Position numbers and translations under genes: made by a program. A model generated the notes under the pieces. The model was not told the origin of the DNA and ran no database searches. It saw only the letters and a program-made list of their open reading frames with translations. A stretch of 52,603 bases of DNA from a virus. How positions within the stretch are numbered: the stretch's first letter is position 1; the number at the start of each line of letters is the position of its first letter. Below, piece after piece: positions 1 through 51,390 of this stretch. The stretch lies in IMG/VR virus record IMGVR_UViG_3300021475_000018, positions 1-52,603 of that record; one strand, given 5' to 3'.

Positions 1-115
1 CTGCGATCGGAATACTATTCTGGTGGGCAGGATCAAATCTAGATGCCTCGCGGGAAAAAGCGATTTGGTGCGGGGCTTCCGGATATTTTTCAAGATGTTG
101 AAGGAAGCCTCGTGA
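1..115 (+). CDS. 3' part of a small gene that crosses the window junction
   Basis: Base 1 completes a codon begun by the last two bases of the window (52602-52603). The frame then stays open for 37 codons to TGA at 113-115. With the GTG at 52587 it gives exactly 44 codons (43 aa), a basic protein with no recognised domain. The stop overlaps the next start by one base (TGATG), the same tight coupling seen along this gene string. The unbroken frame supports a circular or circularly permuted molecule. Function unknown. Confidence 0.6.
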   Translation, partial: CDRNTILVGRIKSRCLAGKSDLVRGFRIFFKMLKEAS

Positions 116-285
116 TGACACAACACAGTCCGTACGCCCAACGCTGGGAAATCGCCGGCCAGCGCGTCAAGGTCATGTACGCGGTCGGCACCGCCATCAC
201 CGAGGACATCGCCGAAGCGCTGCTTTGGCGCAAGTGGTACCCGTCGCTTGGGTTGCGGTGGGTCGTTATCGCGGTGTCGGCATGA
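115..285 (+). CDS. hypothetical early protein, 56 aa
   Basis: Not recognised. The ATG at 115 overlaps the preceding stop (TGATG) and the gene ends in an ATGA overlap with the next start at 282. It therefore belongs to a translationally coupled run of small genes (52587 through 1128). The protein is short and soluble-looking, with a Trp/Tyr-rich middle and a hydrophobic C-terminal end. An in-frame extension to 43 exists but would overlap the upstream gene, so the coupled ATG was preferred. Confidence 0.55.
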   Translation: MTQHSPYAQRWEIAGQRVKVMYAVGTAITEDIAEALLWRKWYPSLGLRWVVIAVSA

Positions 286-428
286 ATGACTTCGGCGGCG
301 GCTTTCTCGCATACGAGCAATTGAAGGATTTGCTTATCGAAGGCACCGCGGTACTGTTTGCCCTTGCTTCGCTCGCGTGTTGCGTCGGAGCGGCTTACTC
401 TCTTTGGAAAGTACTGCGCAATGGATAG
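282..428 (+). CDS. small single-span membrane protein, 48 aa
   Basis: Begins with an ATGA overlap on the previous gene. Residues about 18-38 are a continuous hydrophobic stretch (Leu, Ile, Ala, Val, Cys, Gly) ending in a short basic tail, so one transmembrane helix is likely. It overlaps the next gene, whose ATG at 421 lies inside its last codons. No family recognised. Tiny membrane proteins in phage early operons often alter the host envelope or exclude superinfection, but nothing here proves such a role. Confidence 0.6.
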   Translation: MNDFGGGFLAYEQLKDLLIEGTAVLFALASLACCVGAAYSLWKVLRNG

Positions 429-720
429 CAAGTATTGGGCTGCCTTGATAATTATCGCAGGTGCCAACTGCGTTTGGGTCGTACTCATGAGCATCGCGTT
501 GCGCCGCCGTCGCTATCCGGCCGTACACAAGATGGTGTTCACGCTGCTGGACGATGCCTACGCGAACGGACATTCCGAACCTGGGGAGCGGTGTCACGGC
601 ATGAGCCCCGACGAAATAGCGTACGATATGACGCTTTACGCGCCGGACTGCGAAAACCTTCGACCGGAGTTTTTGACGCCGTACGTACGTGCATGGATGC
701 AACAAAAAGGGCTCGAATAA
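421..720 (+). CDS. membrane-anchored hypothetical protein, 99 aa
   Basis: The N-terminal 25 residues form a hydrophobic segment (IIIAGANC, then VVLMSIAL), followed by an Arg-rich stop-transfer run (RRRR) and a soluble, acidic C-terminal domain of about 70 residues. The topology suggests an N-out/C-in anchored protein with a cytoplasmic domain. The start at 421 overlaps the upstream gene, and the stop at 718-720 overlaps the next ATG (TAATG). No family recognised. Confidence 0.65.
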   Translation: MDSKYWAALIIIAGANCVWVVLMSIALRRRRYPAVHKMVFTLLDDAYANGHSEPGERCHGMSPDEIAYDMTLYAPDCENLRPEFLTPYVRAWMQQKGLE

Positions 721-956
721 TGGACGTACAGGAATTTTCTAAGCTTAGGGTTGACGACGTGATACGGAACGAAATGTCCGGCAGCAACGGCATTGTCGTT
801 GCAGTCGAGAGCATGGGCGTACGGGTGCGTTGGGGCGATGCTGCGCTTGCGGTGCCCGGTATCACGCCAACATTTTTTTATAGCGTGCAGGGCACGGCGT
901 GGTTTCACTGGTCCAAGGTGGCGCAGGATGACGGCGATACTGCGCCGGGCGCGTGA
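720..956 (+). CDS. hypothetical protein, 78 aa
   Basis: Starts in a TAATG overlap. The sequence has a beta-rich feel (short alternating hydrophobic stretches such as GIVVAVESMGVRVRW), resembling small SH3/KOW-like domains that phages use widely, but no signature is firm enough to name. It overlaps the next gene by 29 bases. Part of the coupled early string. Confidence 0.6.
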   Translation: MDVQEFSKLRVDDVIRNEMSGSNGIVVAVESMGVRVRWGDAALAVPGITPTFFYSVQGTAWFHWSKVAQDDGDTAPGA

Positions 957-1128
957 GCTGCAACCGGGCCACAAGCTGTTTTTCACGCTCGAAACCGTGG
1001 TACGGACGTTTACCGATCGCATGACGCCGGAAGGCTACGTGAACGTGACACTGCAAAAGCCGTGCGGGAAGACTCGGACGGCGGTCTACAAGACCTACAA
1101 GCGAATAAAACTGTACATGGACGCTTGA
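928..1128 (+). CDS. hypothetical basic protein, 66 aa
   Basis: The ATG at 928 lies within the upstream coding end; an in-frame start at 793 would overlap more heavily and was rejected. The product is Lys/Arg/Thr-rich with a strongly basic C-terminus (KTYKRIK), suggesting nucleic-acid contact. Its stop codon (1126-1128) lies inside the -35 box of the next promoter, so this is the last gene of the run that started near 50.4 kb. Confidence 0.6.
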   Translation: MTAILRRARELQPGHKLFFTLETVVRTFTDRMTPEGYVNVTLQKPCGKTRTAVYKTYKRIKLYMDA

Positions 1129-1153
1129 CAACGTTTAAACGGTGCCCTACAAA
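1125..1153 (+). promoter_or_regulatory. sigma70-type promoter for the SprT-like gene
   Basis: TTGACA (1125-1130), a 17-bp spacer, then TACAAA (1148-1153). The spacer contains the palindrome GTTTAAAC. The -35 box overlaps the stop codon of the preceding gene. The match to the host housekeeping consensus is good. Confidence 0.7.
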
Positions 1154-1168
1154 GGGCCATCTTAACCC

Positions 1169-1180
1169 CGCTGGAGAGCG
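1169..1180 (+). promoter_or_regulatory. leader hairpin presenting the Shine-Dalgarno (copy 1)
   Basis: CGCTGGAGAGCG: a CGCT/AGCG stem closes a GGAG tetraloop, and GGAG is the Shine-Dalgarno, 8 nt before the ATG at 1185. Copies of the same 12-mer precede genes starting at 36086, 45189, 50130 and 51393, and a base-pair variant precedes 46781. Confidence 0.7.
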
Positions 1181-1184
1181 ACCC

Positions 1185-1796
1185 ATGCCCAACAATTTCC
1201 AAACCCGCGAAGAATGGCTTAACTTCGTCATGGACGAAAGCCGCCCCAAGTTCAAAGAGCTGGGCGCCCCTATCCCGGCCAAGATACGCCTGAGCGTTGG
1301 TTTCACGTCGAACGGCTACCGCGGCAAGGCTATCGGCGAGTGCTGGGACAGCAAGGCATCGGGCGACAAGACCTTTGAAATCTTCGTCAAGCCCGATCAA
1401 GACGAAGCCGTACGCGTTGCCGGCATCTTGGTTCACGAGTGCGTGCACGCCGCGGTCGGCATCGACCACGGTCACAAGCGGCCGTTCAAGCGCGTTGCTG
1501 AAGCTCTGGGCCTTGAAGGCAAGATGACAGCGACCACCGAAGGCGCGCTGTTCAAGGAGTGGATTGGGCCGATCTTGAAGAAGGCCGGGCCGCTACCGCA
1601 CAAATCGTTGCGCGCTTACCGCACCAAGAAGAAGCAGGGCACGCGGTTGCTGAAGTGCGAGTGCATAAATTGCGGCTACGTCGTCCGTACGACTGCGAAG
1701 TGGCTGGACACTGCTGGGGCGCCGTTCTGCGGCACCAAGACACACGGCCGGATGATTTGCGAAGAAATCGAAGATGGTGAAGGAGAGGACGAATGA
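1185..1796 (+). CDS. SprT-like zinc metalloprotease with zinc-ribbon tail
   Basis: 203 aa. A HECVH motif (HExxH, residues 84-88) is followed by a further HGHK-type His, as in the SprT/Spartan family, whose members are usually zinc proteases acting on DNA-bound proteins. A C-terminal ribbon has Cys at about 158, 160, 163, 182 and 192, typical of SprT-like phage proteins. The ATG at 1185 follows the hairpin leader. Expressed from its own early promoter and coupled by ATGA to the next gene. The role in infection is inferred: processing of DNA-protein crosslinks or a host target. Confidence 0.8.
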   Translation: MPNNFQTREEWLNFVMDESRPKFKELGAPIPAKIRLSVGFTSNGYRGKAIGECWDSKASGDKTFEIFVKPDQDEAVRVAGILVHECVHAAVGIDHGHKRPFKRVAEALGLEGKMTATTEGALFKEWIGPILKKAGPLPHKSLRAYRTKKKQGTRLLKCECINCGYVVRTTAKWLDTAGAPFCGTKTHGRMICEEIEDGEGEDE

Positions 1797-1996
1797 ACCG
1801 AGCAGTACGGCAACGCCGGCAGGCACACAGACGACGGCTCGCCTTAGGGCGGGCTATGCACCAAGTACGGGCCGCGCGCTGGGGCTGCCACACCCGCGCG
1901 TGGAAGCTTCGCAAGCCGTGGCGCATTCAAATCCCGCGCATGCTGCGCAAGCACGCCAAGCTACTGCATCACACGATGGCCGTTTTGGGGAGCTGA
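1793..1996 (+). CDS. arginine-rich small protein, 67 aa
   Basis: Starts in an ATGA overlap with the SprT-like gene. Very rich in Arg, Ala and His, with aromatic residues scattered through it, so nucleic-acid binding is plausible. No family recognised. The ATGA coupling and the immediate fit before the next gene at 1998 argue that it is real. A competing frame (1774-2118) crosses the 1998 start and is less credible. Confidence 0.55.
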   Translation: MNRAVRQRRQAHRRRLALGRAMHQVRAARWGCHTRAWKLRKPWRIQIPRMLRKHAKLLHHTMAVLGS

Positions 1997-1997
1997 C

Positions 1998-2306
1998 ATG
2001 GACAAGGCTCTATGCCCCTTCAACTACGCTGGTCAACCGAGTTGCGAATGCTCGCTGCGATGCGCAATATTACAAGGCCAGAAACCGCGTGTACGGGTCA
2101 AAGCGCGCGGTCGAATGATCGGCAACAGTATTCCTTTGGATGCGCAGCCCGGTGATTTGATAGTCGGAAACCGGGGAGCTGCGGCCGTGGTGCAAGAATG
2201 GTGGACATCATCGGGGCTAAGCAGCGTCCTGAACACGCTGCATATCGGCAACGTGAATTACGAGGTCGACCGTAGCACGTATCGGCGGGTATACGATCGC
2301 AGTTGA
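1998..2306 (+). CDS. hypothetical protein with an N-terminal Cys cluster, 102 aa
   Basis: A GGGGAG Shine-Dalgarno sits just before the ATG. Residues 6-22 hold four Cys (CPFN, CECS, CAI pattern) that could bind a metal. The rest looks like a small beta domain (PGDLIVGNRGAAAVV, then HIGNVNYEVD). No family recognised. It closes the rightward early block; its stop overlaps the -35 box of the next promoter. Confidence 0.65.
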   Translation: MDKALCPFNYAGQPSCECSLRCAILQGQKPRVRVKARGRMIGNSIPLDAQPGDLIVGNRGAAAVVQEWWTSSGLSSVLNTLHIGNVNYEVDRSTYRRVYDRS

Positions 2307-2332
2307 TAGCCACGCCCCGAACGTGCTATTGT
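2303..2332 (+). promoter_or_regulatory. promoter for the giant internal virion protein
   Basis: TTGATA (2303-2308), 18-bp spacer, TATTGT (2327-2332). The -10 box matches the one before the leftward gene at 50130. Drives the 2359-7091 transcription unit. Confidence 0.6.
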
Positions 2333-2358
2333 GGGTTCAAATCACGGAGATTTGACCC
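2333..2358 (+). promoter_or_regulatory. translation-start hairpin before the giant gene
   Basis: GGGTTCAAATC and GATTTGACCC pair as a 10-bp stem with one bulged T around the loop ACGGA. The stem ends one base before the ATG at 2359, and the Shine-Dalgarno lies in and beside the loop. Likely modulates initiation; same logic as the GGAG-tetraloop leaders but with a different, longer stem. Confidence 0.6.
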
Positions 2359-5300
2359 ATGGCCAGCGACGATGCCAGCACGTTCGGCGGTGACAGCGCC
2401 CAAACCACGTTCGGGAGCGGGTTGAACTATATCGGCGGAGGCGGCGCAGACCCGGGGAGCAATGGCGCGGACATACCGCCGGGCTCCCCGGCACCCGTGC
2501 AGCCTGCTCAGGCTCCGCAAGCGTCTCCGTCGTTCGGCAGCATGCTGGGCGGTCCGCGCTACGCGCCCCCGGACCCGAACGCGTCGCCGCTTGACCAGAC
2601 TGCGGACACGCTGCAACAGCGCATTCAACGCGCGAACAGCGTCGCGACCAATCCGATGCTTCAGCTTTTCGACCCCGCTTCGGTGCAGAAAGCCCGGGAC
2701 TTTGTGCCGGCGGCTACGGAGCAGTTGCAGAAAATCAAGCAGCAGAAAGCCGATATCGCAGCGGGCCGCGCCGAAGCATCCAGCTTGGGGCTCAACCCCG
2801 GTGACGCGCCCGACGAAGCCACGCACGACGACAGGGTTTCGGTTGCGGTGAACAAGTCGCTGCAAGGCGATCTGAAGACGTTCAAGGGTCTTTCAGCAAT
2901 CGATCCGCAGCGCGCCGCGTCCATTCAAGATCAGGTACACGAGGCCGCATCTACGCATTTGAACAATGCGCAGCTCGCTTTCGACAGTCTGTCATCCGTA
3001 CCAAATCAGGGCCAGTACACCGCGAAGCTCAATCAGCTTCGCAAAGACGGCACCTTGACCGATTTGGAAGCGCTGGGCCTGAAGCTGCCGGAAAGCTATG
3101 ATGCGTTCAACGCCAGCAAGCCGGCGGAAGGCGAACAGCTTCGGCAAGCGCGCGTCGGAATGGAAAATCTCAAAGCGAAGATTGACGAACGTGGCAACGG
3201 TACGCCGATGTCCGCGGACGAACAGAAGACGTACGCCGGCCGGTTGACCACCGAAAGCGGGCAGGCGATCAACAACGGTACGTGGTCGCGGATCAACGGC
3301 AAGCGCGTGTACACCGTGAACGGTCAAGGCGACATTCGCGACCTGGGGACCAAGTTCAATTACGCCAACGCGGATCAGCGCAAGCAGTTTGGCGAAGAAA
3401 CTGCCGCAGCGGTGCCAAAGACCGACTTGGAAAAAGACCGCAATTTTAACCGCCTCTATTCGATTGCGACGGTGGACGCGAAGGGCAACGCAATCCCGGC
3501 ATCCGGCGCCGTGGATGAAAAAGGCAACCGTACATATTTGAACACCAACCCCAACGTACAGCAAGGCATTGCCGAAGGGCTCGCCAGCATGTTGCGCGGC
3601 GGTTCGGGCGGCGCGACAAGCGGTTTGCTCAATATCGAAACCAGCAAGCGCGGCGCCGTACAAGCCGTTCTGGACAAGATCATTTCGAACTATGCCGGCG
3701 GCGTCAATACGTTGACGGGCGATCAGGTCAAGCCGTACCTGTCGCAGATGACACAAGAGCAAATGCGCTCGGTTATGGACGGATTGAAAGGCTACAACGA
3801 CAAGGCCATGAGCGACCGGCTGGCGCCGATTGCGCAGCGCGCCGGAGAGCTGGGTCTTGATGCGTCGGCGCTGGGGCTGGGCAAAGACGAAGTGAAGGGC
3901 GTCCAAGACGCCATCGAAGCCGGTCGGCAAAGCACGATTGCCCGCTTCACCGCGCGCTCGCGTGCGGTCGGCGGCGGCGATGGCGGTATCTTTCTCGACA
4001 ACCCGCCGCCCGTGCTGGTAACGCATCCGGACCACCCGCCGGGCTCCGTACCGGAAGTGCCGCCGCCCGTACAGGGTCAAGGCGGGGCACCGCAGCCATT
4101 GCCGGGCGCAGCGGGAGGCGGCCAGCCCAGTGGTCCCGGTGGTGGCGGTCCCGGTGGTGGCGGCGGGGGCCCCGGTGGTGGTCCTGCGCCGACGCCCATC
4201 ACAATTGCCGGCCAACCGGTCGCGCCTCGCGTGCCCCCAGGTGGGACGCCCGGTTACTTCCCGGCGATGCAGCGCATCGAAAGCGGCAACGAAAAAACGC
4301 CGTGGACCGCGGGCACGCCAAAGACCAGCGCGAGCGGCGCGTTCCAAATGACGGATGCAACGTGGTTGGAAAACCGTCCTGCCGGCGTGACCGCGATGCG
4401 CGCCAAAGACGCAACGCCGGCACAGCAGACGCAGGCCGCCGAAACGTTGACGGCGAAGAATGCCGGAAAGTTGCAGCAAAACAACCTGCCCGTGAACGAT
4501 GTCAATCTGTACGTCGCGCATAACCTGGGCGCGAACGGTGCTGCGAAGTTGTTGCATGCGGACCCGAATGCCGACGCCCGTATGGTTGTCGGCGACACCG
4601 CTGCGAACAACAATCCGATGTTCTACAAGGGCAGGCCAACGGTTGCGGTAGCGATGCAGCGGTACGCCGCGGAAATGGGCAAAGGCACAAGTGCAGCGAA
4701 GCCGGTTGACATCGCATCGCTGCCCGACGTTGGCGCGGCACCGTGGAACGGCGCAACAACGCCCCAAGGTGACCGCGTGGCGACGCCGGCAGAGCGCGCG
4801 GCCGGACCCGTCGTGAGCAACGCGCCCGCGATCGGCAGCACTGTGGGCAGCATTGCCGGTGCGGTTGGCGGCCCCGCGGGCTCAGTGGCGGGTGGCGCTG
4901 CTGGCGGTGGTGCCGGTCAGGCATTTCAAAGTTGGATGCGCGGCGAAAGCCAAGACCCGGTGAAGATCGCGAAGCAAGCCGCGCTTGGTGGCGTCCTGGG
5001 TATCGCGCCGGAAGCAAGGCCGTTGCTTGGCGCTGCGGCTCGTGTTGGCGGCGCTGCGGCAGTTGATGCCGGCGCGACCGCGGCGCAAGGCGGCAGTACG
5101 GCGGACGTAATCGACAGTGCGGTGGAAGGCGGGAGCTACGCGCTCGGCGGCGAAATGCTGGGGCGCTTCATTTCTGCGCTGGGTCCAGCCGCGCACCGCG
5201 TGTTGTCGAATTACAAGCCAGACGCGCAAGTACAAATGTCGGAAATGGCTGGTAAGCTGTCCGAAGCGCGCAAGACGCTGGAAACGGAGGAACCGAAGAT

Positions 5301-6342
5301 TGCCGGGGCCGCGGGCGCCAGCTCGCCCAATCCGAAGTACGACGCGGCGAAGGCGCAGGAAGAAACCGCAAGCGAATTTATCAAGGCGCACGGGCAAAGC
5401 CCTGAAGATATGGTGTACGCGTACGATCAAGCCAAGCAAGGCGTTTCATCTGGCGAGGCGTTCACAATGCGCCGGGCCAACTCGGAACGCAGCAACGTAT
5501 CGGCTGGTTACAATGAACTGCGCCAGCAAGTGAACGATACCGGCGTCGGGGCGCCGAAGCCGAACCAACCCGTACCGGACGGTCCGGTTGCGCAGCTCCG
5601 TACGGCTGACAACATGACCGGCAGCGTTCCCGAACAATTTCGGCCGCAAGCCGAGCATGCCGAAATGCTGATAAAGGCGCCGGCTCAGAATTGGGGCCAG
5701 AAATGGCAACAATTGCAAGATGCCGGTTCGGAGCTGATTAGGCAGCGAATGGACTTCTTGAACGCGGGAGACAAAACCAGCGCCACGGCAATGAACAACC
5801 TATTCCAAGGCGTACGGAACCAACAAAAGGCGGCGGCCGAATACGTGTTCGGCGCTGATCGCGGCAAAGCGATTATCAGCAATCTGGAAAATCTTGACCA
5901 GCGTTACGCCAAGGTGATGAATGCCACCAATGGCATGAATTACGAGAAGATGCGAGCTACGCTCGCGGCAGGTAACACGCCGGAAGCGCGCGAACTGGAA
6001 AAGAATTTCACCGAATTTGCGAAGGGCGATCCATCGGCAATGCGTGCGTTCAACGCAATGAAGGCCGGCGCGAAAGGCGATTGGAAGTCGGAAGCGGCGT
6101 TGATGACGCCCATCATTGCCGGCGAAGCTGCGACCAACGCCAGCGGCATCCCGACGTTGGGTGCGGTAAGTGCTGCGATCGGCGGGTATCGTCTGTACAA
6201 GATTGCGCAAGGCTACATGAACGCGCGCGTTCTGGGCAAAGCAGTGATGTTCAAAGACTTCTTGGCCAACGAAGTGAAGAATGGTTTTCCGAGCCTCGCC
6301 CAAGGAGCGGCGCAGCGCGGAGCCATACAGGGGGCGCAATAG
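2359..6342 (+). CDS. giant internal virion protein with transglycosylase domain
   Basis: 1327 aa, the largest gene. N-terminal third is Pro/Gly/Gln-rich and low complexity. The middle is alpha-helical. A Gly/Pro linker lies around residues 560-620. An SLT-type lytic transglycosylase domain follows (about 630-780) with the catalytic Glu in RIESG at residue 641 and the downstream SASGAFQM motif. A glycine-zipper hydrophobic stretch lies at about 815-870, then a long helical C-terminus. This resembles podovirus core/ejection proteins (T7 gp16 type) that enter the cell with the DNA and open peptidoglycan. Promoter and a start hairpin lie directly upstream. Confidence 0.85.
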   Translation: MASDDASTFGGDSAQTTFGSGLNYIGGGGADPGSNGADIPPGSPAPVQPAQAPQASPSFGSMLGGPRYAPPDPNASPLDQTADTLQQRIQRANSVATNPMLQLFDPASVQKARDFVPAATEQLQKIKQQKADIAAGRAEASSLGLNPGDAPDEATHDDRVSVAVNKSLQGDLKTFKGLSAIDPQRAASIQDQVHEAASTHLNNAQLAFDSLSSVPNQGQYTAKLNQLRKDGTLTDLEALGLKLPESYDAFNASKPAEGEQLRQARVGMENLKAKIDERGNGTPMSADEQKTYAGRLTTESGQAINNGTWSRINGKRVYTVNGQGDIRDLGTKFNYANADQRKQFGEETAAAVPKTDLEKDRNFNRLYSIATVDAKGNAIPASGAVDEKGNRTYLNTNPNVQQGIAEGLASMLRGGSGGATSGLLNIETSKRGAVQAVLDKIISNYAGGVNTLTGDQVKPYLSQMTQEQMRSVMDGLKGYNDKAMSDRLAPIAQRAGELGLDASALGLGKDEVKGVQDAIEAGRQSTIARFTARSRAVGGGDGGIFLDNPPPVLVTHPDHPPGSVPEVPPPVQGQGGAPQPLPGAAGGGQPSGPGGGGPGGGGGGPGGGPAPTPITIAGQPVAPRVPPGGTPGYFPAMQRIESGNEKTPWTAGTPKTSASGAFQMTDATWLENRPAGVTAMRAKDATPAQQTQAAETLTAKNAGKLQQNNLPVNDVNLYVAHNLGANGAAKLLHADPNADARMVVGDTAANNNPMFYKGRPTVAVAMQRYAAEMGKGTSAAKPVDIASLPDVGAAPWNGATTPQGDRVATPAERAAGPVVSNAPAIGSTVGSIAGAVGGPAGSVAGGAAGGGAGQAFQSWMRGESQDPVKIAKQAALGGVLGIAPEARPLLGAAARVGGAAAVDAGATAAQGGSTADVIDSAVEGGSYALGGEMLGRFISALGPAAHRVLSNYKPDAQVQMSEMAGKLSEARKTLETEEPKIAGAAGASSPNPKYDAAKAQEETASEFIKAHGQSPEDMVYAYDQAKQGVSSGEAFTMRRANSERSNVSAGYNELRQQVNDTGVGAPKPNQPVPDGPVAQLRTADNMTGSVPEQFRPQAEHAEMLIKAPAQNWGQKWQQLQDAGSELIRQRMDFLNAGDKTSATAMNNLFQGVRNQQKAAAEYVFGADRGKAIISNLENLDQRYAKVMNATNGMNYEKMRATLAAGNTPEARELEKNFTEFAKGDPSAMRAFNAMKAGAKGDWKSEAALMTPIIAGEAATNASGIPTLGAVSAAIGGYRLYKIAQGYMNARVLGKAVMFKDFLANEVKNGFPSLAQGAAQRGAIQGAQ

Positions 6343-6512
6343 TGGCACGACCAAAAGGGGCCAAGACAGCGCGAACCGAAGCGGAGCGCGCGGCGGTGCA
6401 GGAACGCGAGCGCAAGCGGCAACGCAGATACCAAAAGAGGCGTTACGCACGTAGGAAATTGGAGCGCAATAATGGCACGCAACGAACAGCACATGCATTT
6501 GCCGCTAATTGA
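6342..6512 (+). CDS. small basic protein, 56 aa
   Basis: A GTG start shares one base with the stop of the giant gene (TAGTG). Nearly half the residues are Arg, Lys, Glu or Gln in a long charged helix (ERERKRQRR, then KRRYARRK). Overlaps the next gene by 41 bases. Likely DNA- or capsid-binding, but unassigned. The overlap with both neighbours makes the start choice fairly firm. Confidence 0.55.
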   Translation: MARPKGAKTARTEAERAAVQERERKRQRRYQKRRYARRKLERNNGTQRTAHAFAAN

Positions 6513-6759
6513 TCGGCTAGCGGAGCAGTTGAAAGACAGCGGCACGCCGAGCCACACAGCGCGAGACATGGCGTTATCAATTTTACGTGACCGCGGACAC
6601 GTACACACCAACTCCGAACAGCTCACGGCCGAAGGTGCGCGGCGCGATCAGATGGGAGCCGCCGGCAGGGCGATTGACCGCGCTTCGAAGGCGAGCGGCA
6701 AGCCAGCGGAGCATTACGAATATGACACGAAGATCAATCGCGCCGTACTTAAGAGGTAG
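6472..6759 (+). CDS. hypothetical protein, 95 aa
   Basis: A GGAG Shine-Dalgarno lies before the ATG at 6472. Mostly helical and charged, with no membrane segment or signal peptide. The C-terminus is basic. It sits between virion genes in the same unit as the giant protein. No family recognised. Confidence 0.65.
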   Translation: MARNEQHMHLPLIDRLAEQLKDSGTPSHTARDMALSILRDRGHVHTNSEQLTAEGARRDQMGAAGRAIDRASKASGKPAEHYEYDTKINRAVLKR

Positions 6760-6770
6760 AACGTTTAAAC

Positions 6771-7091
6771 GTGTCGTTATTTCCGTGGCTCAATCAACCA
6801 CCGCCAACGCTCAAAGAGTTGACGCCACGGGAGCGCATGCTCGAACGGCTCAAATTCGGAGTACCGCTGGAGCTTGTGGCCCGTGCGGCCGGACTTCGTC
6901 CGGAAACTTTGAAGGAAGACCCGGAAGTTGACAAGGCGATGGCCGAAGGCGAGATTTTGTTGTTCGAACGCGCGCGAGACAGCAGCGTGACGGGTATCGT
7001 ACGGGCCGCTATGCGTCGGGAAGCGGAGAGCTGGCTGCCCAAGGCGGAACCCAGTTCGGCGGGTTCGCTGGAGGATTTGCTGCGGGACTAG
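6771..7091 (+). CDS. HTH-containing protein, possible small terminase
   Basis: 106 aa, GTG start just after a GTTTAAAC palindrome. The N-terminus carries the recurrent FPW motif (residues 4-6). Residues about 20-60 look like a helix-turn-helix (FGVPLELVARAAG, then LRPETL), followed by a helical region and an acidic C-terminal tail ending LEDLL. Small size, HTH and acidic tail suit a terminase small subunit, but the large subunit is 13 kb away and other DNA-binding roles are possible. Followed by a clear terminator. Confidence 0.55.
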   Translation: MSLFPWLNQPPPTLKELTPRERMLERLKFGVPLELVARAAGLRPETLKEDPEVDKAMAEGEILLFERARDSSVTGIVRAAMRREAESWLPKAEPSSAGSLEDLLRD

Positions 7092-7203
7092 CTGAATAAT
7101 GTTTGTGCGGCTTAAAGTCCGCATTCATCCATGGCGCGCGGTTATTCGCGTCCCGTTTCAAACATGCCGGGATACCCGCGTCATCTTCCCAGGGTAGCGC
7201 CAT
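7009..7203 (-). CDS. small PWED-motif protein, 64 aa
   Basis: The minus-strand ATG at 7203 has GGAG seven bases upstream. The protein opens MALPWEDD, matching the [YFL]PW[EQ] motif found in other proteins of this genome. The tail is Pro/Ala/Asn-rich. It lies downstream of the 7407 membrane protein on the same strand and overlaps the end of the rightward 6771 gene by 83 bases, so the last third is less certain. Function unknown. Confidence 0.5.
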   Translation of the reverse strand: MALPWEDDAGIPACLKRDANNRAPWMNADFKPHKHYSASPAANPPANPPNWVPPWAASSPLPDA

Positions 7204-7222
7204 TTCAGTGCTCCGTATTTGT

Positions 7223-7262
7223 GTGCTGCCGACAATCGTACGCCGGCAGCACGAGTATTTTT
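7223..7262 (+). terminator. rho-independent terminator after the 2359-7091 unit
   Basis: GTGCTGCCG and CGGCAGCAC pair perfectly around a 12-nt loop, followed by GAGTATTTTT. Correctly placed to stop rightward transcription from the giant-gene unit before it runs antisense into the 7261-7407 gene. Confidence 0.75.
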
Positions 7263-7407
7263 AGCGCATATACACAATGCGTTGCGGTTTTGCCGTTACC
7301 GCATTTTGCCAACCGACGATATCAGATGCCGTCAAGATTACGAGCCCCAGCACGACAACGGCGCCGAAACTTAGCAACATTCCTACAAGCAAGCGTGCGA
7401 GCACCAT
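7261..7407 (-). CDS. small single-span membrane protein, 48 aa
   Basis: The minus-strand ATG at 7407 has an excellent Shine-Dalgarno (AAGGAGG). Residues 5-27 are hydrophobic (LLVGMLLSFGAVVVLGLVIL), giving one transmembrane helix, then about 20 polar residues. It has its own promoter at 7470-7498 with a 16-bp palindrome at the expected transcription start. First gene of a two-gene leftward unit (with 7009-7203) inserted among rightward structural genes. Could be a lysis- or exclusion-related peptide; unassigned. Confidence 0.65.
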   Translation of the reverse strand: MVLARLLVGMLLSFGAVVVLGLVILTASDIVGWQNAVTAKPQRIVYMR

Positions 7408-7455
7408 TTCAACCTCCTTTGCGTGTTGTACACATTTTTCTGTACAAACGTAGTA

Positions 7456-7471
7456 TGTACAGCGCTGTACA
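7456..7471. promoter_or_regulatory. 16-bp palindromic operator
   Basis: TGTACAGCGCTGTACA is a perfect palindrome. It abuts the -10 box of the leftward promoter and covers its expected start point, so it is a candidate operator. Further TGTACA copies lie near 7425 and 7441. Confidence 0.6.
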
Positions 7472-7498
7472 CATAGTTCCGTACAAGGAACATGTCAA
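7470..7498 (-). promoter_or_regulatory. leftward promoter for the 7407 gene
   Basis: On the minus strand, TTGACA (7498-7493), 17-bp spacer, TATGTG (7475-7470). The spacer contains GTTCC-N6-GGAAC. Confidence 0.6.
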
Positions 7499-7519
7499 GC
7501 CGCTACATTTAGACCCCCG

Positions 7520-7528
7520 TGTCATACA
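7520..7528. promoter_or_regulatory. operator half-site TGTCATACA
   Basis: One of five copies of the 9-mer TGTATGACA (here inverted). It pairs with the copy at 7557-7565 in a divergent control region; between them is the inverted repeat CTACA-AAA-TGTAG (7530-7542). Confidence 0.6.
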
Positions 7529-7552
7529 TCTACAAAATGTAGTACAAGCCCC

Positions 7553-7581
7553 TTGATGTATGACAATTTGGCGTGTTATCG
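7553..7581 (+). promoter_or_regulatory. rightward promoter with operator for the 7627 structural unit
   Basis: TTGATG (7553-7558), 17-bp spacer, TTATCG (7576-7581). The 9-mer operator TGTATGACA (7557-7565) overlaps the -35 and spacer. A hairpin ATAG-GAGG-CTAT (7612-7623) places the Shine-Dalgarno of the 7627 gene in its loop. Confidence 0.5.
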
Positions 7582-7626
7582 GTGATTTGGTGAAGATTTC
7601 CAACCGGGCCCATAGGAGGCTATACC

Positions 7627-8364
7627 GTGCAAATTGTTAACCAGCCCATCTTGGGCGGCGGTTTCCGCCACTACTCAGGTTTGCTGCCTGCCATCAACGC
7701 AGCCGGCGACCCCTTCCACGCTTCTGTGAGGCTTTTCCACGTCCCGGCTGCGGACACCAACGCGATGTTCCGCGGAGATATCGCCGTTTCGTCATCGGGC
7801 GCGATTGGCACCCAAGGCGGTGCGGACAATCCGGCCAACATCGGACCGCCGGCCGCAACGCCGGCAACGACCGTCATCGGCAACGGCGGCGGCTCAGGTC
7901 TAGGCAACCAATCGATTGCGCCCAATATCACGCGCTGGGTGCCCGCCGATACTACGTCGCTGATTGTCGGTGCCATCGTCGGCTTCGGTCCGATCACGCT
8001 GTACATGGCCAAGAACGGCTTCCAGTACAAGCCGGCGAGTTTCGAAGCATGGTTCTGGGTGGAGACGGACCCGGCCATGGAATTTACCGCAACCGTACCC
8101 ACCGTGCCCGGCACTGCATTCAATTTGCAGCTCATGGATGGCATCGACGTGAAAGCCAACGCCGGCTTTCAATCGACGCGCTTCGGTATTTCGGGCCTGT
8201 CGCTGGACCCTGCCACCATCGCGACCACGGCTACGCTGCCCCTGCGCATCTTGGGTTCGGGCGAGCAGATCGGCAACGACCCAACTTCGCCGGGTTTCGT
8301 TGCCAAGGTGACTTTCAACAAAAGCCGCCACGCATTCGCCAACGGCGCGTTCGTCGCCGACTAA
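7627..8364 (+). CDS. structural protein, possibly abundant
   Basis: 245 aa from a GTG start behind AGGAGG. No signal peptide. Gly/Ala/Thr-rich and beta-strand-like throughout, with alternating hydrophobic residues, typical of decoration or tail structural proteins. It stands first in the fibre/surface region under the operator-bearing promoter, and a terminator at 8997 would raise its expression with the next gene relative to the rest. No family recognised; head decoration, tail or exported surface roles are all open. Confidence 0.65.
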   Translation: MQIVNQPILGGGFRHYSGLLPAINAAGDPFHASVRLFHVPAADTNAMFRGDIAVSSSGAIGTQGGADNPANIGPPAATPATTVIGNGGGSGLGNQSIAPNITRWVPADTTSLIVGAIVGFGPITLYMAKNGFQYKPASFEAWFWVETDPAMEFTATVPTVPGTAFNLQLMDGIDVKANAGFQSTRFGISGLSLDPATIATTATLPLRILGSGEQIGNDPTSPGFVAKVTFNKSRHAFANGAFVAD

Positions 8365-8404
8365 CAGCCCGTCAACCGTAACGTTGAAACGAGGATACAG
8401 GACA

Positions 8405-8983
8405 ATGAAGGAATTTCTTTCCAAGCTGAAGGGCGCAGCGATCGCGGTTGCGGCCGTCGTTGCTTTGATGCTGCCGACCGGTGGCGCTTTGGCCCAGACC
8501 ATCACCGCGCTCCCAAACAACGTCATCATCAACAGCGTTCTGGACATGGGCAACGGCCCCATGGAACTGAAGGTGCTGCAAGGCAACGGGTGGTTGTTCA
8601 CTGCGCAGGGTGCCGGCGTCGGCTCCACGTCGGGTTCGTCCACCACGTTGACGCTCACGGCGACCGCCGCTGCGGACCCGCCATGTGTAGGTTGCGAAAT
8701 TTCCGGCGCCGGCATCACGTCGGGCACCACCGTGGCAGCGTTCAACGGCACCACCACCATCACGCTCTCCGCGGCGATGACGGTTGCGGCGTCCACCCCG
8801 CTTGCATGGGGAATGGCCTGCCCGACCTTCGCAGCGCTGTCCGGCCTGCCCCCGGTACCAAATGTCGGATTGCCGGCTGCCGGCGGCGGTGACTTGCCGC
8901 TGTACACGCAGGCACGGGTCTGTCTTTTGGCGCAGAACGGTCCCGGCCTTACCGTGCTGCCCTTCCCGATCGGCGCGCACTAG
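8405..8983 (+). CDS. exported protein with Sec signal peptide, 192 aa
   Basis: The N-terminus has Lys residues, a hydrophobic core (AAIAVAAVVALML) and an ALA-Q cleavage site near residue 31, a textbook Sec signal. The mature part is beta-rich with Thr/Ser/Gly repeats (GSTSGSSTTLTLTATAAA) and two Cys pairs (CVGC, then later C residues) that could form disulfides in the periplasm. Followed by a terminator. Unusual for a phage structural region; see findings. Confidence 0.7.
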   Translation: MKEFLSKLKGAAIAVAAVVALMLPTGGALAQTITALPNNVIINSVLDMGNGPMELKVLQGNGWLFTAQGAGVGSTSGSSTTLTLTATAAADPPCVGCEISGAGITSGTTVAAFNGTTTITLSAAMTVAASTPLAWGMACPTFAALSGLPPVPNVGLPAAGGGDLPLYTQARVCLLAQNGPGLTVLPFPIGAH

Positions 8984-8996
8984 CAGCGCTTAGCGG

Positions 8997-9020
8997 CCGG
9001 GGGCTTCGGCTCCCGGTTTT
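8997..9020 (+). terminator. rho-independent terminator or attenuator
   Basis: An 8-bp stem (CCGGGGGC with GCTCCCGG) closed by a TTCG tetraloop, followed by TTTT and ACTTT. It lies between 8983 and the next start at 9045 in the same direction, so it probably attenuates rather than ends the unit. Confidence 0.7.
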
Positions 9021-9044
9021 ACTTTCAACCGGAGGACTGCTTCC

Positions 9045-9338
9045 ATGCGTAAATATTTCGCTTGCGCGCTCGCGATGTCGCTTGCTTTCTCCGCTCCGAT
9101 CGCGGTTGCGGCGCAGACTTCTAAGCAGGGCATGCCAACCATTCACGTTCCGTACAGCGGCGCGGTCAAGGTGCCCTTCATGACGACTGCGCAGCTTCCG
9201 ATTTGCGATAGCTTCAACATCGGCATCATTCTTGGCGTCACCGATGCAACGACGCCGACGTACAACGGTGCGCTGACCGGCGGCAGCAACGTTGCCGTGC
9301 TTGTCGTGTGCAACGGTGCTGCTTGGAAATCGATGTAG
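9045..9338 (+). CDS. exported protein with Sec signal peptide, 97 aa
   Basis: GGAGG lies before the ATG. Residues 1-22 form a signal peptide (RKYFACALAMSLAF, cleavage near AVAAQ). The mature part is about 74 residues with two Cys and beta-like segments (IIGVTDATTPTYNGALTG style). Sits between another exported protein and fibre genes. No family recognised. Confidence 0.7.
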   Translation: MRKYFACALAMSLAFSAPIAVAAQTSKQGMPTIHVPYSGAVKVPFMTTAQLPICDSFNIGIILGVTDATTPTYNGALTGGSNVAVLVVCNGAAWKSM

Positions 9339-9353
9339 CAAGGAGCTGCCGCC

Positions 9354-9671
9354 GTGGCTATGAACCCCATCGTTTCCGTTCCGCGCGACTATCAGCAATG
9401 GTCGAACAACGTCATTCCGGTTATCGACTTTCCGTGCAAAGCCGGTGTGTACACGTTCACAGCGACGGCGACGGCTTGGGGTACGGCGCAGCTTCAGCGC
9501 ATGGTCGCGGACCCCGTACTAGGCGCCGAGTATATCAACATCGGCGCCGCGATTGTGGCCAATGGCATGACCGAGTACCACTTGGCGGCGGGGCAGTATC
9601 ATTGGGCCATCGCGGGAACGACTGGCTTTTCCGGCGTGTTCGAACGTACGGGTTCGTGGGCAGGAAGGTAG
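9354..9671 (+). CDS. hypothetical virion/fibre-region protein, 105 aa
   Basis: The GTG at 9354 follows AAGGAG; the in-frame ATG two codons later is an alternative start. No signal peptide. A compact beta-rich protein with conserved-looking aromatic residues (YQQW, YHWAIAGTTGF). Neighbours are fibre and exported proteins, so a role in the tail or fibre is likely but unproven. Confidence 0.65.
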   Translation: MAMNPIVSVPRDYQQWSNNVIPVIDFPCKAGVYTFTATATAWGTAQLQRMVADPVLGAEYINIGAAIVANGMTEYHLAAGQYHWAIAGTTGFSGVFERTGSWAGR

Positions 9672-9675
9672 TTGA

Positions 9676-10275
9676 GTGACGTATACGCCGTCAACCGATC
9701 TTCTCGCGCTGTTGCGGAATACGGCGAACGGCGAACGCGTAACCAGTGTCCCCGGGCTCGATTGGGTTGTTGCTGCGCTTGCGCGCGCCGGTTTGATTAC
9801 TTTGGTTGTGAGCCAAACTGCGCCGACTGTTAATCAAGCAATTACGGCGTGGTTTAAACCAAATATTCCCTCATGGACCGCCGAAGGTGTTTTGTTTTTG
9901 TGGAACGGCACAGCATACGCGCCAGCCACGCCCGCATTGTGGAACCAAGTCATAAGTTCCAGCGGCTCGGCGACGCTGAACTATGTTACGATAAATGCAC
10001 TCGGAACCGGTGCATACGCTGCACAGCCAGCCGATGACGTGATTTTGATTAAGTCAGGTGTAGGCGCACCGTTCACGGTAAACGTTGACTGGAGTGCGCG
10101 CACAAAGAAGCTAACCGTTGTTGACAGCGGATTGGGTGCTTTGGCGAACAACATCACCATTGTACCTAAAGCGGGCCAGACGCAAATGGGCACGTTGAAT
10201 TATCAGTACCCCATCGACAGCAACGGCGGAAGTATCACACTCACGCCACTACCGGACGGTTCGGGAGCCTACTAG
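9676..10275 (+). CDS. fibre-module protein, paralog A, 199 aa
   Basis: GTG start. The first about 95 residues (PSTDLLALLRN, PGLDWVVAALARAGLITL, TAWFKPNIPSWTAEGVLFLWNGTAYAPATPALW) are shared with the proteins at 14647 and 15801, while the C-terminal half is unique and beta-rich. A common N-terminal docking domain with variable distal parts is the usual design of phage fibres. The stop overlaps the next GTG (TAGTG). Confidence 0.7.
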   Translation: MTYTPSTDLLALLRNTANGERVTSVPGLDWVVAALARAGLITLVVSQTAPTVNQAITAWFKPNIPSWTAEGVLFLWNGTAYAPATPALWNQVISSSGSATLNYVTINALGTGAYAAQPADDVILIKSGVGAPFTVNVDWSARTKKLTVVDSGLGALANNITIVPKAGQTQMGTLNYQYPIDSNGGSITLTPLPDGSGAY

Positions 10276-12172: not shown

Positions 12173-12178
12173 AGAGTC

Positions 12179-12469: not shown

Positions 12470-12472
12470 GCG

Positions 12473-12802: not shown

Positions 12803-12807
12803 CGACG

Positions 12808-13020
12808 ATGGGCAAAGACGCGAAGGGCCACGGTTCTGCTGCTCGCGGCGGCCGGCAAACAAAAATGACCGCCATGCGTTTTGAACACGCGGCCCGTACG
12901 GGCGTGCTTGGTTCAAAGTTCAAGTCGAAAGCGGTGCGTAGCGGTAAGCAGGCGAAGATGACGAAACTAAGATCGTCGTTTCGTTTCAACGCTGCGTTAA
13001 AGTCGCCACGTTCGAAGTAG
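12808..13020 (+). CDS. basic hypothetical protein, 70 aa
   Basis: ATG at 12808, just after the previous gene; a much longer upstream extension of the same frame overlaps that gene and was rejected. Highly basic, with Lys/Arg/Ser/Met and motifs such as RGGRQTKM and SGKQAKM that look like an internal duplication. No family recognised. Confidence 0.6.
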   Translation: MGKDAKGHGSAARGGRQTKMTAMRFEHAARTGVLGSKFKSKAVRSGKQAKMTKLRSSFRFNAALKSPRSK

Positions 13021-13032
13021 AAGGGAACTTAC

Positions 13033-36089: not shown

Positions 36090-36101
36090 CGCTCTCCAGC
36101 G
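36090..36101 (-). promoter_or_regulatory. leader hairpin presenting the Shine-Dalgarno (copy 2)
   Basis: CGCTGGAGAGCG on the minus strand, before ATG 36086. Same element as copy 1. Confidence 0.7.
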
Positions 36102-36102: not shown

Positions 36103-36342
36103 TTAGGATGCCACAACTATGCACATTTGTACGGGCGCGTCAAGCACTATTTTGACCCCTCTGAAACAAAATCTATGGGTTTTTGGCGGAGCGCGTCGAA
36201 TGTTGTTCGACCGAAGCCAACGCCCCGAACCGCATTCGCACACGCAAAACCACGAAATAGCGCCGTGTATCGTGGCTTTTTCTGCTCGGTATGCGATGGT
36301 GACCAAGCCGAACTTCTTCCCGGGTTCTATAAAATCGTTCAT
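36103..36342 (-). CDS. zinc-binding HNH-associated-type protein, 79 aa
   Basis: Start at 36342, overlapping the adenine methylase stop by ATGA. IEPGKKFGLVTIAYRAEKATIHGAISWFCVCECG, then LRSNNIRR, C pattern, resembles the short Cys-rich domains that accompany HNH or AP2-type endonucleases in phages. No nuclease core follows, so it may be a stand-alone or degenerate DNA-binding piece. Its tail overlaps the promoter of the next gene. Confidence 0.55.
   Translation of the reverse strand: MNDFIEPGKKFGLVTIAYRAEKATIHGAISWFCVCECGSGRWLRSNNIRRAPPKTHRFCFRGVKIVLDAPVQMCIVVAS
36116..36143 (-). promoter_or_regulatory. promoter for the 36086 gene
   Basis: Minus-strand TTGACG (36143-36138), 16-bp spacer, CATAGT (36121-36116). 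Overlaps the 3' end of the upstream gene. Confidence 0.6.
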
Positions 36343-45192: not shown

Positions 45193-45204
45193 CGCTCTCC
45201 AGCG
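45193..45204 (-). promoter_or_regulatory. leader hairpin presenting the Shine-Dalgarno (copy 3)
   Basis: CGCTGGAGAGCG on the minus strand, before ATG 45189. Identical to copies 1, 2, 4 and 5. Confidence 0.7.
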
Positions 45205-45220: not shown

Positions 45221-45249
45221 TCTGTACAGAAGTCCGCTTAACCCGTCAA
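45221..45249 (-). promoter_or_regulatory. promoter for the 45189 unit
   Basis: Minus-strand TTGACG (45249-45244), 17-bp spacer, TACAGA (45226-45221). An AT-rich inverted repeat ATTTTCAA/TTGAAAAT (45255-45274) lies just upstream and may be an operator. Confidence 0.65.
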
Positions 45250-46781: not shown

Positions 46782-48832
46782 GGGTAGCTCTCCAGCTTGG
46801 TTGTCGGTGTTTGAACGGTCCAGTTAACCGTAAGAGGCTGTTGTACGTTTCCGGCGGGCGAATAAACCGCATAAAAAGGGCATCCGCGCATCGTACGGAA
46901 GTGTCCCGAATTTAGCAAGCTCTGCATGCCCTCTTTTTCAAATAATTTTAGGGCAGCATCCTTGCTGATGACGAAGGCCGGCACGGAACCGTGTACGGAT
47001 GCACCCAGTTCGGCGGCGACACTATCAAAGGGAACCATGTTGCCGGCGCGAAGCGCGTCCATTCCGCCGCTAGTGACGCCGGGCAGCATCGCGCCGAGCC
47101 GTATCATGGCACTCTGTTCGCGTTGCTGCGGTGTTGTAATGATTTCGCGTTTAAACACATTCACCGTTGTTGCACGCCCCTTGCTGTCGTTGCCGTAGTG
47201 TTCGGAAATAATTCTCCCGGTGTAGCTCTTTGCCTTTGGCGCGCCGCGCGCTTTACCGCAGTCGATTGACACCGTGTCTTGCCGGCCAGCGGTGACGCGA
47301 TACATGAAACCGCTATTGCCGGCCTTGGCGCCGTTGCCTTTCTGCCAAGCATCCTCATTGCCGAGCGGCAAATGGTCCGTAACAACCATCGCTGCGCCCG
47401 TACGAAATGCGACATTTTTCAAAATGAACATCGCCTTTAAAACGCTTTCGGTATCGTTGTCGGCAAAGCAAAGCCCCGACGACGCCCAGGTATCCAGCAC
47501 GAGCAAGTCAACGCGCATGCCCATGGCGGCCATCGCAGCAACTTGGCCTAGGCAATCTTGTTCGAAGGAGCCGGAATTGACGCGCGGTATTAGATGGAAG
47601 CGTGAAGCTAGCTCGTTGCCGTTCGGTTCCTGCCGGATAAGATGCCTTACGCGTCGTTCTGTGCCGTAATCGTCTTCAGCGGCAACCCATAAGACATGAC
47701 CGTCCGTACGTTCCACTTCCGCGTCAAGCCATGCTCGGCAAGTGAGATAAGACACGCAAAGGTCGCTAACGACAGATGATTTTCCGGCTCCGCTGTGTCC
47801 GGTAAAGAAGTGAACTTCGCTACACAAAACGCGTTGATATAGTAGCCATGGTAACTCATTTGTGCTGTCCTCCAGTTTCAGCTCAAAGCCCGTACGAGCC
47901 TGCAACGTCGGCGCCGTTTGTCCGTCATGCAAACCTTGAAGAAACGTACGGCGCGACATGATAGCTTGCATTATCAGATTGCCGCGCAACACCGGCAACT
48001 GATCATGGCGCATGATTTCTTCGCCCAGGACGCGCCCGCCGTGACCTTCGGATAACGAGTGACCCGCGCTGGTTATCGCAGTTTCGATTTCCTCTCGTGT
48101 GCACATGCCGTTCTGCTCGGCGAACTTCAGCACCCCGACAAGCGAAAAAATCGTGGACCCGCGGCCCTCCGTACGGCCCATCAAGTCTTGCTTGAGCAGT
48201 CCTAAGTATCGTTTAGTGGCGTCGCGGCCGGCTTGCCATTCATCTTGCGTTCTAGGAATAGCTTCTGAAAGTTCGTCAGCTCCAGCGGTTTCGTGCTCGG
48301 CTCCGAACCGCAGGGACGTACCAGCCTGACGCGGCACTTCTGCAAGAATATGCTGAAGCTGTGCTGTTGTAATTTGCGGCCACTCTGCATCCCAATTCTC
48401 CCATTCGTACGGCTGTCCGGTGTCTTTGTGCGGGCCGAAGGCGACGAATTGTCCGCCCATCAATTGGAGCTTATCGCCGTCCGGAAATGTGAAAGTGCGA
48501 CCCTGTACGGGTGCGTCACGCAGAAAGAACGGTATCAGGAAACGCGGCCGTCTTCCCCATCGGATAGGAGTGTTCGGGCCGAGTATAGTACGAAACGCCT
48601 GCAAGAGACGCCCAGACATTTCGGGGTTTGATACGTCACAGTCAAAAGCGGTAAGGCCGTTGTCTCCGCAGCGGAGGCCCACGCTGCCGGCGCCTGGGTG
48701 GGGGATTGGTGATGTCCAGACATTCCAGCCGTCTCCTATGGGAGCTTTAGAACCCCTTGCGATAGCTAGCGGAAACAGTCCGCGCTGTACGGCTTGCGTC
48801 CAGAAGTCCTGAATGGTAAGAGGTAAAGGCAA
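46769..48832 (-). CDS. primase-polymerase / DnaB-type helicase, 687 aa
   Basis: TTG start (TGATTG, GGGGGC site). N-terminal about 210 residues resemble a primase-polymerase (TAFDCDVSNPEM metal-binding Asps at 64/66, RWGRRPRFLIPF). A RecA-like ATPase follows: Walker A GHSGAGKSS (345-353), LLVLDTWASSG Walker B and TDHLP. So it can prime and unwind at the fork. Ends ESYPWQN, one copy of the YPWQ motif. A bidirectional terminator is just upstream, so expression is controlled there. Confidence 0.85.
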   Translation of the reverse strand: MPLPLTIQDFWTQAVQRGLFPLAIARGSKAPIGDGWNVWTSPIPHPGAGSVGLRCGDNGLTAFDCDVSNPEMSGRLLQAFRTILGPNTPIRWGRRPRFLIPFFLRDAPVQGRTFTFPDGDKLQLMGGQFVAFGPHKDTGQPYEWENWDAEWPQITTAQLQHILAEVPRQAGTSLRFGAEHETAGADELSEAIPRTQDEWQAGRDATKRYLGLLKQDLMGRTEGRGSTIFSLVGVLKFAEQNGMCTREEIETAITSAGHSLSEGHGGRVLGEEIMRHDQLPVLRGNLIMQAIMSRRTFLQGLHDGQTAPTLQARTGFELKLEDSTNELPWLLYQRVLCSEVHFFTGHSGAGKSSVVSDLCVSYLTCRAWLDAEVERTDGHVLWVAAEDDYGTERRVRHLIRQEPNGNELASRFHLIPRVNSGSFEQDCLGQVAAMAAMGMRVDLLVLDTWASSGLCFADNDTESVLKAMFILKNVAFRTGAAMVVTDHLPLGNEDAWQKGNGAKAGNSGFMYRVTAGRQDTVSIDCGKARGAPKAKSYTGRIISEHYGNDSKGRATTVNVFKREIITTPQQREQSAMIRLGAMLPGVTSGGMDALRAGNMVPFDSVAAELGASVHGSVPAFVISKDAALKLFEKEGMQSLLNSGHFRTMRGCPFYAVYSPAGNVQQPLTVNWTVQTPTTKLESYPWQN
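46786..46797 (-). promoter_or_regulatory. variant leader hairpin (copy 6, compensatory change)
   Basis: AGCTGGAGAGCT: same GGAG tetraloop, but the outer C-G pair is A-T. The hairpin lies within the primase-helicase tail and serves the ATG at 46781. Confidence 0.65.
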
Positions 48833-50134: not shown

Positions 50135-50146
50135 CGCTCTCCAGCG
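50135..50146 (-). promoter_or_regulatory. leader hairpin presenting the Shine-Dalgarno (copy 4)
   Basis: CGCTGGAGAGCG on the minus strand, before ATG 50130. Confidence 0.7.
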
Positions 50147-50164: not shown

Positions 50165-50192
50165 ACAATAGCAGGTTTTAGGTGCCTGTCAA
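50165..50192 (-). promoter_or_regulatory. leftward promoter of the 50 kb control region
   Basis: Minus-strand TTGACA (50192-50187), 16-bp spacer, TATTGT (50170-50165). The 19-bp palindrome at 50193-50211 touches its -35, so it is probably regulated. Confidence 0.7.
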
Positions 50193-50422: not shown

Positions 50423-50869
50423 ATGACAAAACTCCCGGCTACCCGGCTTTCACAGTATGCGATGCAATCGGCTTGTGAAGAGATTGCACGGATACGGCCA
50501 TTCGTACGGAAGGAAAGCACGGCTTTGACAACGGCTTGCAGACAGGCGGGCATGCCTATGGAGCTGGCGGAAGTATGCGGCGGACTACTCGCCTCCGTAG
50601 TTGATGATTTAGTTGCTGCAAGCGGCTTGCCCAAATCGAGCTTTGAGCGTACCAAGCGAATGGTTCGCGTTTTGAAGACCGCCCAGGAGCCGGCCAGTCA
50701 CGCGCTACGGTTGGCCATGGCAGCGTCGCCAATCAACGGGGAAGCGGCTGTGATGCACTGGGACGCTATTTGCGAAGATCGCGAAAGAGGCAAGTTAGCG
50801 TGGCTGCTCGGCATGAGCACTGAGGCAGCTTGGAAGTACGGCAAGCGCATGGAAAAGATGACGGCATGA
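50423..50869 (+). CDS. hypothetical helical protein, 148 aa
   Basis: ATG at 50423 preceded by CGGTA-CGGAAA-TACCG (50405-50420), which places the Shine-Dalgarno in a loop. Helical, with many Ala/Glu/Arg, a Cys pair, and DAICEDRERGKLAWLLGMSTEAAWKYGKRMEKM at the end. It is the first rightward gene beside the repeats, so a replication initiator or regulator is possible. No family recognised. Confidence 0.65.
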   Translation: MTKLPATRLSQYAMQSACEEIARIRPFVRKESTALTTACRQAGMPMELAEVCGGLLASVVDDLVAASGLPKSSFERTKRMVRVLKTAQEPASHALRLAMAASPINGEAAVMHWDAICEDRERGKLAWLLGMSTEAAWKYGKRMEKMTA

Positions 50870-51335: not shown

Positions 51336-51364
51336 TTGACGGCGCATTTGTACGGGTCCATATT
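51336..51364 (+). promoter_or_regulatory. rightward early promoter
   Basis: TTGACG (51336-51341), 17-bp spacer, CATATT (51359-51364). A leader with ACACAAACC and the GGAG hairpin follows, nearly the same as before the 45189 gene. Confidence 0.7.
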
Positions 51365-51378: not shown

Positions 51379-51390
51379 CGCTGGAGAGCG
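51379..51390 (+). promoter_or_regulatory. leader hairpin presenting the Shine-Dalgarno (copy 5)
   Basis: CGCTGGAGAGCG before the ATG at 51393. Confidence 0.7.

Follow-up and report, generated by a model that had tools for sequence, protein, structure and literature searches.

Why do several genes of one phage start behind the same short leader, and does that leader work as a letter sequence or as a folded RNA? We asked this of a 52,603-base IMG/VR virus record, here called the window and analysed over its whole length, which encodes a Pol I-type polymerase, helicase, primase, exonuclease, terminase and head-closure gene. A preliminary description had reported six early genes with a shared leader hairpin that carries the Shine-Dalgarno (SD) sequence as its loop. 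The core GCTGGAGAGC is found at all six places, reading CGCTGGAGAGCG in five copies and AGCTGGAGAGCT in one (Table 1). Six cores are about 85 times the chance expectation of 0.07 (sd 0.29), and none of 100 shuffles reaches six. Each copy precedes the ATG of an open reading frame of 59 to 203 codons. Promoter-like sequences accompany five of the leaders, as reported: the five C..G copies have TTGAC(A/G) 46-50 nt 5' of the GGAG and a -10-like hexamer with 3-4 of 6 matches. The copy at 46781 is without a promoter and overlaps the final primase codons (KLESYPWQN-stop). The six genes are taken to be early from their position, since all lie outside the structural block (~2.4-34.6 kb).

Table 1. Coordinates of leader hairpins, promoter-like sequences and other features of the window
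Feature	Position	Strand	Remarks
Hairpin CGCT-GGAG-AGCG	1169..1180, core 1170-1179	+	Before ATG 1185 (203 aa, weak SprT-like match)
Leader hairpin	36090..36101, core 36091-36100	-	Before ATG 36086 (77 aa)
Leader hairpin	45193..45204, core 45194-45203	-	Before ATG 45189 (67 aa)
Variant hairpin AGCT-GGAG-AGCT	46786..46797, core 46787-46796	-	Before ATG 46781
Leader hairpin	50135..50146, core 50136-50145	-	Before ATG 50130 (60 aa)
Leader hairpin	51379..51390, core 51380-51389	+	Before ATG 51393 (105 aa)
Promoter-like TTGACA-17-TACAAA	1125..1153	+	
Promoter-like TTGACG-16-CATAGT	36116..36143	-	
Promoter-like TTGACG-17-TACAGA	45221..45249	-	Weak -10
Promoter-like TTGACA-16-TATTGT	50165..50192	-	
Promoter-like TTGACG-17-CATATT	51336..51364	+	
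RF00519 (suhB/MmgR, alphaR8-like) small RNA	28557-28638	+	Rfam; anti-SD motif UUUCCUCCCU
RF02496 (Atu_At1, Rhizobiales small RNA)	39039-39148	-	Rfam, 88 bits
All-helical 148 aa protein, conserved	50423..50869	+	Between divergent early promoters; candidate trans-acting factor

Two further features of these early regions were observed. The peptide YPWQ/YPWE occurs at the C-terminus of the primase (46769-48832, minus strand), at that of another early protein (49132-49701, minus strand) and near the N-terminus of a third (45579-45932, minus strand). Recurring palindromes, which may be repressor operators, are seen in promoters of element-led genes, for example 5' of 51393 and in many relatives: GTACGTAC lies close to the -10, and CCCTAGGGA close to the -35 or in the spacer.

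The annotated phage collection held no near DNA match to window positions 1-20000, and polymerase identity to it was at most 28.3% among the best 30 of 1175 records. Relatives were gathered from IMG/VR through the polymerase and primase. Contigs whose polymerase is at least about 68% identical make up clade A, and those at 58-63% make up its sister clade, clade B. Near-identical or contained contigs (G013, G023, G031, G032, G035, G038, G056, G065) and unrelated contigs (G061-G064, G066-G068, G070) were left out of the counts, and clade B counts refer to 9 of its 16 contigs.

The leader is widespread in clade A. Across 39 contigs the exact core occurs 148 times, and 135 of these copies sit 0-8 nt before a start codon in the sense orientation. 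Two of the remaining 13 are, by eye, true leaders near contig ends; the others resemble coding sequence and include a recurring site taken as the polymerase gene. Among the first 30 non-redundant contigs, 112 of 800 GGAG sites before an ATG reading frame have the exact core, spread over 25 contigs. The wider consensus is AA(C/A)C-GCTGGAGAGC-(G/A), with the ATG 6-10 nt after the GGAG. A search with all stems gave 167 element sites, two of which (GTT/GAC) are probable background, leading genes from 106 unrelated downstream families. At nearly all sites (158 of 167) neither nearest neighbour is a conserved structural gene: 139 have non-structural genes on both sides and 19 are at a contig end. 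The other nine touch the structural block. In clade B there were no exact cores among 189 GGAG starts in nine contigs, a pattern search found the core in none of the 16, and de novo k-mer counts gave no clear substitute leader. A viral scan for the element returned 56 stretches. Of eleven followed up from outside the contigs then known, ten were chance-like, without a close homologue of a window gene, and L164 was a clade A relative.

The most common element-led family, of 130-136 aa, has a second match in most contigs that resembles part of the exonuclease gene. Family rows 'without element' are mostly matches within this apparent exonuclease gene and were not taken as losses. A few elements come straight after terminator-like hairpins with T-runs (G020, minus strand 31884; also G004).

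If the leader folds, changes in one stem arm should be matched in the other. The relatives bear this out: their three inner pairs show compensatory as well as wobble changes, and the opposite pattern, letters held and pairing lost, was looked for and is not what they show. The paired inner stems are GCT/AGC, GCT/AGT (with a G·U pair), GTT/AAC, GAT/ATC and ACT/AGT. For an unbiased count, sites were defined blind to the stem as AA(A/C)(A/C), three bases, GGAG, three bases and an ATG 6-9 nt after the GGAG. Clade A has 150 such sites, 94 with the main stem and 56 with another. Column composition predicts 4.7 fully paired sites among these 56, and 26 are observed (GCT/AGT 11, GTT/AAC 7, GAT/ATC 5, ACT/AGT 1, plus two stems seen once). 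With deduplicated rows, 20 of 49 are paired against a permutation mean of 6.4, and with one stem per genome 15 of 44 against 4.4; neither value was reached in 20,000 permutations. The covariation score is 0.267, compared with 0.115 +/- 0.023 for shuffled alignments (0 of 500 reach it) and at most 0.186 for slid registers, in an alignment of 63 distinct 17-mers that includes unpaired background (cells paired, 63%). Sites in context with one or two changes keep pairing in 24 of 29 cases, while 17% of the possible single and 11% of the possible double changes would do so. Without the AA requirement, pairing is lost in 44 of 64 sites with two changes, and many of these are presumably background.

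The same exchanges are seen in homologous genes, with C-G to A-U in three families and G-U to A-U in one. Of the 21 members of the 130-136 aa family, 19 have GCT/AGC, one has GCT/AGT and one GAT/ATC. Two other families have GAT/ATC in one genome and GCT/AGC in the others. In a 93 aa family, GCT/AGT in G010 and ACT/AGT in G011 represent the G-U to A-U step. A clear element with a broken pair also exists, GCTGGAGCGC in G033 (GCT/CGC), where the closing pair is lost. The 50423 protein tree groups four alternative-stem genomes (G002, G036, G037, G039) in one supported clade and places G042 apart, and the independent stem changes are therefore few. Within this set of sequences, the inner three-base-pair stem genuinely covaries. 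As a contrast class, genes of about 141-150 aa with a promoter and GGAG (G010 at 2635, G019, G026, G007, G011, G015) have leaders that share the context and not the paired stem.

The outermost pair behaves differently. The exchange of C-G for A-T in the variant window copy had been put forward as a compensatory change, and as evidence of pairing it is poor. The outer letters of the 134 main-stem sites are C-G 62, C-A 52, A-A 7, T-A 5, A-T 4, A-G 2, T-G 1 and C-T 1, and 62 sites (C-A, A-A, A-G or C-T) do not pair there. The outer pair is intact in 72 of 134 main-stem sites compared with 16 of 16 G-U stems (p=0.0002, by a statistic that ignores relatedness). This suggests an optional pair, required chiefly where the stem is weak. 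Only four copies have the A..T form. All lie at the primase gene end, three sharing one frame and G006 using another, and they are best counted as one event. A similar copy in G027 reads A..A. The idea that primase codons alone hold the A-T letters was softened, because G006 has identical letters in a different reading frame.

The loop is constant. Main stems with GGAG scored 120 and any other loop at most three, with double-register sites counted twice; G005 has one extra loop base and retains the stem. The context is also held, with AA at -7,-6 in 126 of 167 element sites compared with 37 of 309 other GGAG starts. These features bear on whether the leader is a plain good ribosome-binding site, spread by duplication, in which the pairing is meaningless. 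GGAG 6-10 nt from an ATG is indeed an ordinary SD. However, the AGGAG extension occurs in none of the 167 elements compared with 63 of 187 other GGAG starts, and predicted pairing with a 16S tail, whose sequence we assumed, is slightly weaker for elements than for other GGAG starts (-7.1 vs -7.7, p=3e-7). The element is therefore not merely a stronger SD. Conservation of the flanks and covariation of the stem are also left unexplained by a plain site; covariation already disfavours it, and we consider it very improbable.

A short dyad just 3' of a transcription start could instead bind a transcription factor as a DNA operator. The dyad exists at the DNA level too, and TTGAC is present at about -60 to -20 of the GGAG in 113 of 167 elements. 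However, it is missing in the other 54, and in 20 of the 167 an upstream frame of at least 100 codons runs open into the element, so the element is not tied to promoters. Further, GGAG lies on the sense strand ahead of the start codon, the G-U type GCT/AGT is kept at 16 sites, and no element site shows the mirror change ACT/AGC, in which A would face C. Different stems coexist in one genome (G036). We give a DNA operator hardly any weight. The fixed orientation to the start codon, the tolerance of G-U and not of its mirror, the copies without TTGAC or within reading frames and the mixed stems of one genome argue, each indirectly, for RNA rather than DNA. From orientation, position, loop constancy and stem covariation, all established by comparing the genomes, we infer that the element would act as RNA at translation initiation.

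How would such an RNA act? The main rival to recognition by a factor is local presentation of the SD. Here the hairpin alone would keep GGAG unpaired and shield the ribosome site from the downstream coding sequence, which would make the translation of newly acquired genes dependable with no factor required. The median predicted probability that GGAG is unpaired is 0.68 in the 167 elements, compared with 0.08 in 119 other GGAG starts of reading frames of at least 150 aa (p=3e-18). Use by 106 unrelated families fits this explanation, as does the freedom of stem letters to vary when pairing is retained. Predicted hairpin energies are weak, at -0.8 to -3.8 kcal/mol. However, the letters are tighter than pairing demands. 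One stem accounts for 134 of 167 sites, all five covarying stems close with U-A, and the GGAG loop and upstream AA are kept; moreover, a four-base loop would probably have to open for the ribosome anyway. Local presentation is thus a real possibility, at about one chance in three by our estimate.

A reader in trans could also be a small RNA. The window has a match to RF00519, with a terminator-like hairpin and directly 3' of the 27550-28500 gene. An alphaR8/MmgR-like RNA with UUUCCUCCC could pair with the GGAG loops, or the hairpins might serve to evade it. At E<=0.001, RF00519 matches 13 of 27 records from clade A and none of nine from clade B, with seven matches above the Rfam cut-off, and passages on Caulobacter call the same motif anti-SD and tie it to repression of many targets (PMC12559287). 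Against this, predicted pairing with the RNA core is alike for elements and other GGAG starts (-9.7 vs -10.0, p=0.42), and with no preference for elements the anti-SD RNA was rejected as the reader. The motif alone is weak, since exact TTTCCTCCC has 15 copies in the 39 clade A contigs against about 12 by chance, and RF00519 is not matched in the alternative-stem genomes G002, G036, G037, G039 and G042. This explanation is unlikely.

The window's second Rfam match, RF02496, overlaps the 5' end of the polymerase reading frame and was found in G000 and G001 only among 36 records. The two small RNAs are named for Rhizobiales or known from Alphaproteobacteria, and therefore suggest an alphaproteobacterial host for clade A phages. 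A host search of genome contigs aligned with the polymerase found no relative.

The closest known element is the Start-Associated Sequence (SAS) of cluster K mycobacteriophages, for which a published passage gives the 13-bp consensus GGGATAGGAGCCC (PMC3203893). Its function is given as unknown or ill-defined in passages of three papers (PMC3203893, PMC12699233, PMC11373665). As far as those accounts go, both are short repeated motifs that contain the SD, lead many non-structural genes from unrelated families at a distance of a few bases, are conserved beyond the SD and have outer letters that can pair around it. The clade A elements share the SAS traits of including the SD, lying a few bp before start codons, following gene orientation (135 of 148 exact cores) and being confined to non-structural regions (158 of 167 sites). 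SprT-like genes occur in both phage groups. Unlike SAS as described, the clade A element has other letters, a loop other than the seven-base loop of SAS and other hosts; its core is GCTGGAGAGC and differs from the SAS consensus. In six SAS phages we found 108 sites, 85 of them exact, and only one of the 23 variants keeps all three pairs. Covariation is thus absent from SAS in these six phages and present in the clade A element.

Other systems resemble the element in part. T4 RegB targets GGAG in the SD of early mRNAs, with a consensus quoted as GGAGRAYARAA (PMC3014915). All elements here likewise have GGAG in the initiation region of messages that are early as judged by position. However, GGAGAGC of the clade A element does not fit the consensus as quoted, and RegB (PF10715) was found in 0 of 24 records (21 clade A, 3 clade B) at E<=1, a search that a diverged nuclease would escape; RegB was set aside as the phage reader. 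CsrA/RsmA sites have GGA in hairpin loops overlapping the SD, with an ANGGA core. The element is likewise a short hairpin at the SD with GGA in its loop, but the main stem reads GCUGGA, with C for the A of ANGGA, and only GAT/ATC stems read AUGGA. A phage CsrA gave no match in the same 24 records and was likewise rejected. RNA-phage coat operators, and the T4 gp43 operator as described, are hairpins at or near an initiation site with a held shape and partly fixed letters, as here. They differ in that each serves one gene, compared with more than 100 families here. Searches of open-access full texts for such phage hairpins gave, among the matches listed, nothing on the clade A element.

Taken together, the hairpin probably marks clade A genes for shared control of protein production, a reading drawn from sequence comparison. 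We propose an RNA stem-loop in the initiation region, 5'-AA(A/C)(C/A)-(3 bp)-GGAG-(3 bp)-short spacer-AUG, with the AUG 6-10 nt after the GGAG and the SD core as the four loop bases. The closing U-A pair and upstream AA would be held, and the outer two stem pairs would be free to vary if paired. The element would be a portable tag on a large, shifting set of early and accessory genes in one phage group. A trans-acting factor, probably phage-encoded, may recognise the hairpin, and the tagged messages would then be switched or timed together. With so weak a stem, ribosomes should still open the hairpin without the factor. We hold this reading with about even confidence and favour it over local SD presentation, because a constant loop, closing pair and upstream AA on a shape-constrained stem would typify recognised hairpins.

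One candidate reader is the protein encoded at 50423-50869. It is present in 30 other clade A contigs among those searched and in 0 of 9 clade B contigs, although co-occurrence with the clade alone proves nothing. No family matched it, and its structural model (pLDDT 94) had no Foldseek match below E=0.001. The best structural Z in a second look was 5.0, which is uninformative for a helical protein.

SD-containing leaders of the SAS type have been known since 2011, without an assigned function. With the compensatory changes described here, conserved letters become an RNA structure open to testing, for which the natural variants are ready-made. More tentatively, the hairpin may define a phage-wide translational regulon, in which an SD-displaying tag on more than 100 early gene families is read by a phage-encoded factor. 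Genes would then join or leave the regulon by gain or loss of a 14-base leader. If the hairpins are read in trans, many unrelated, fast-changing phage genes would be controlled as one translational set.
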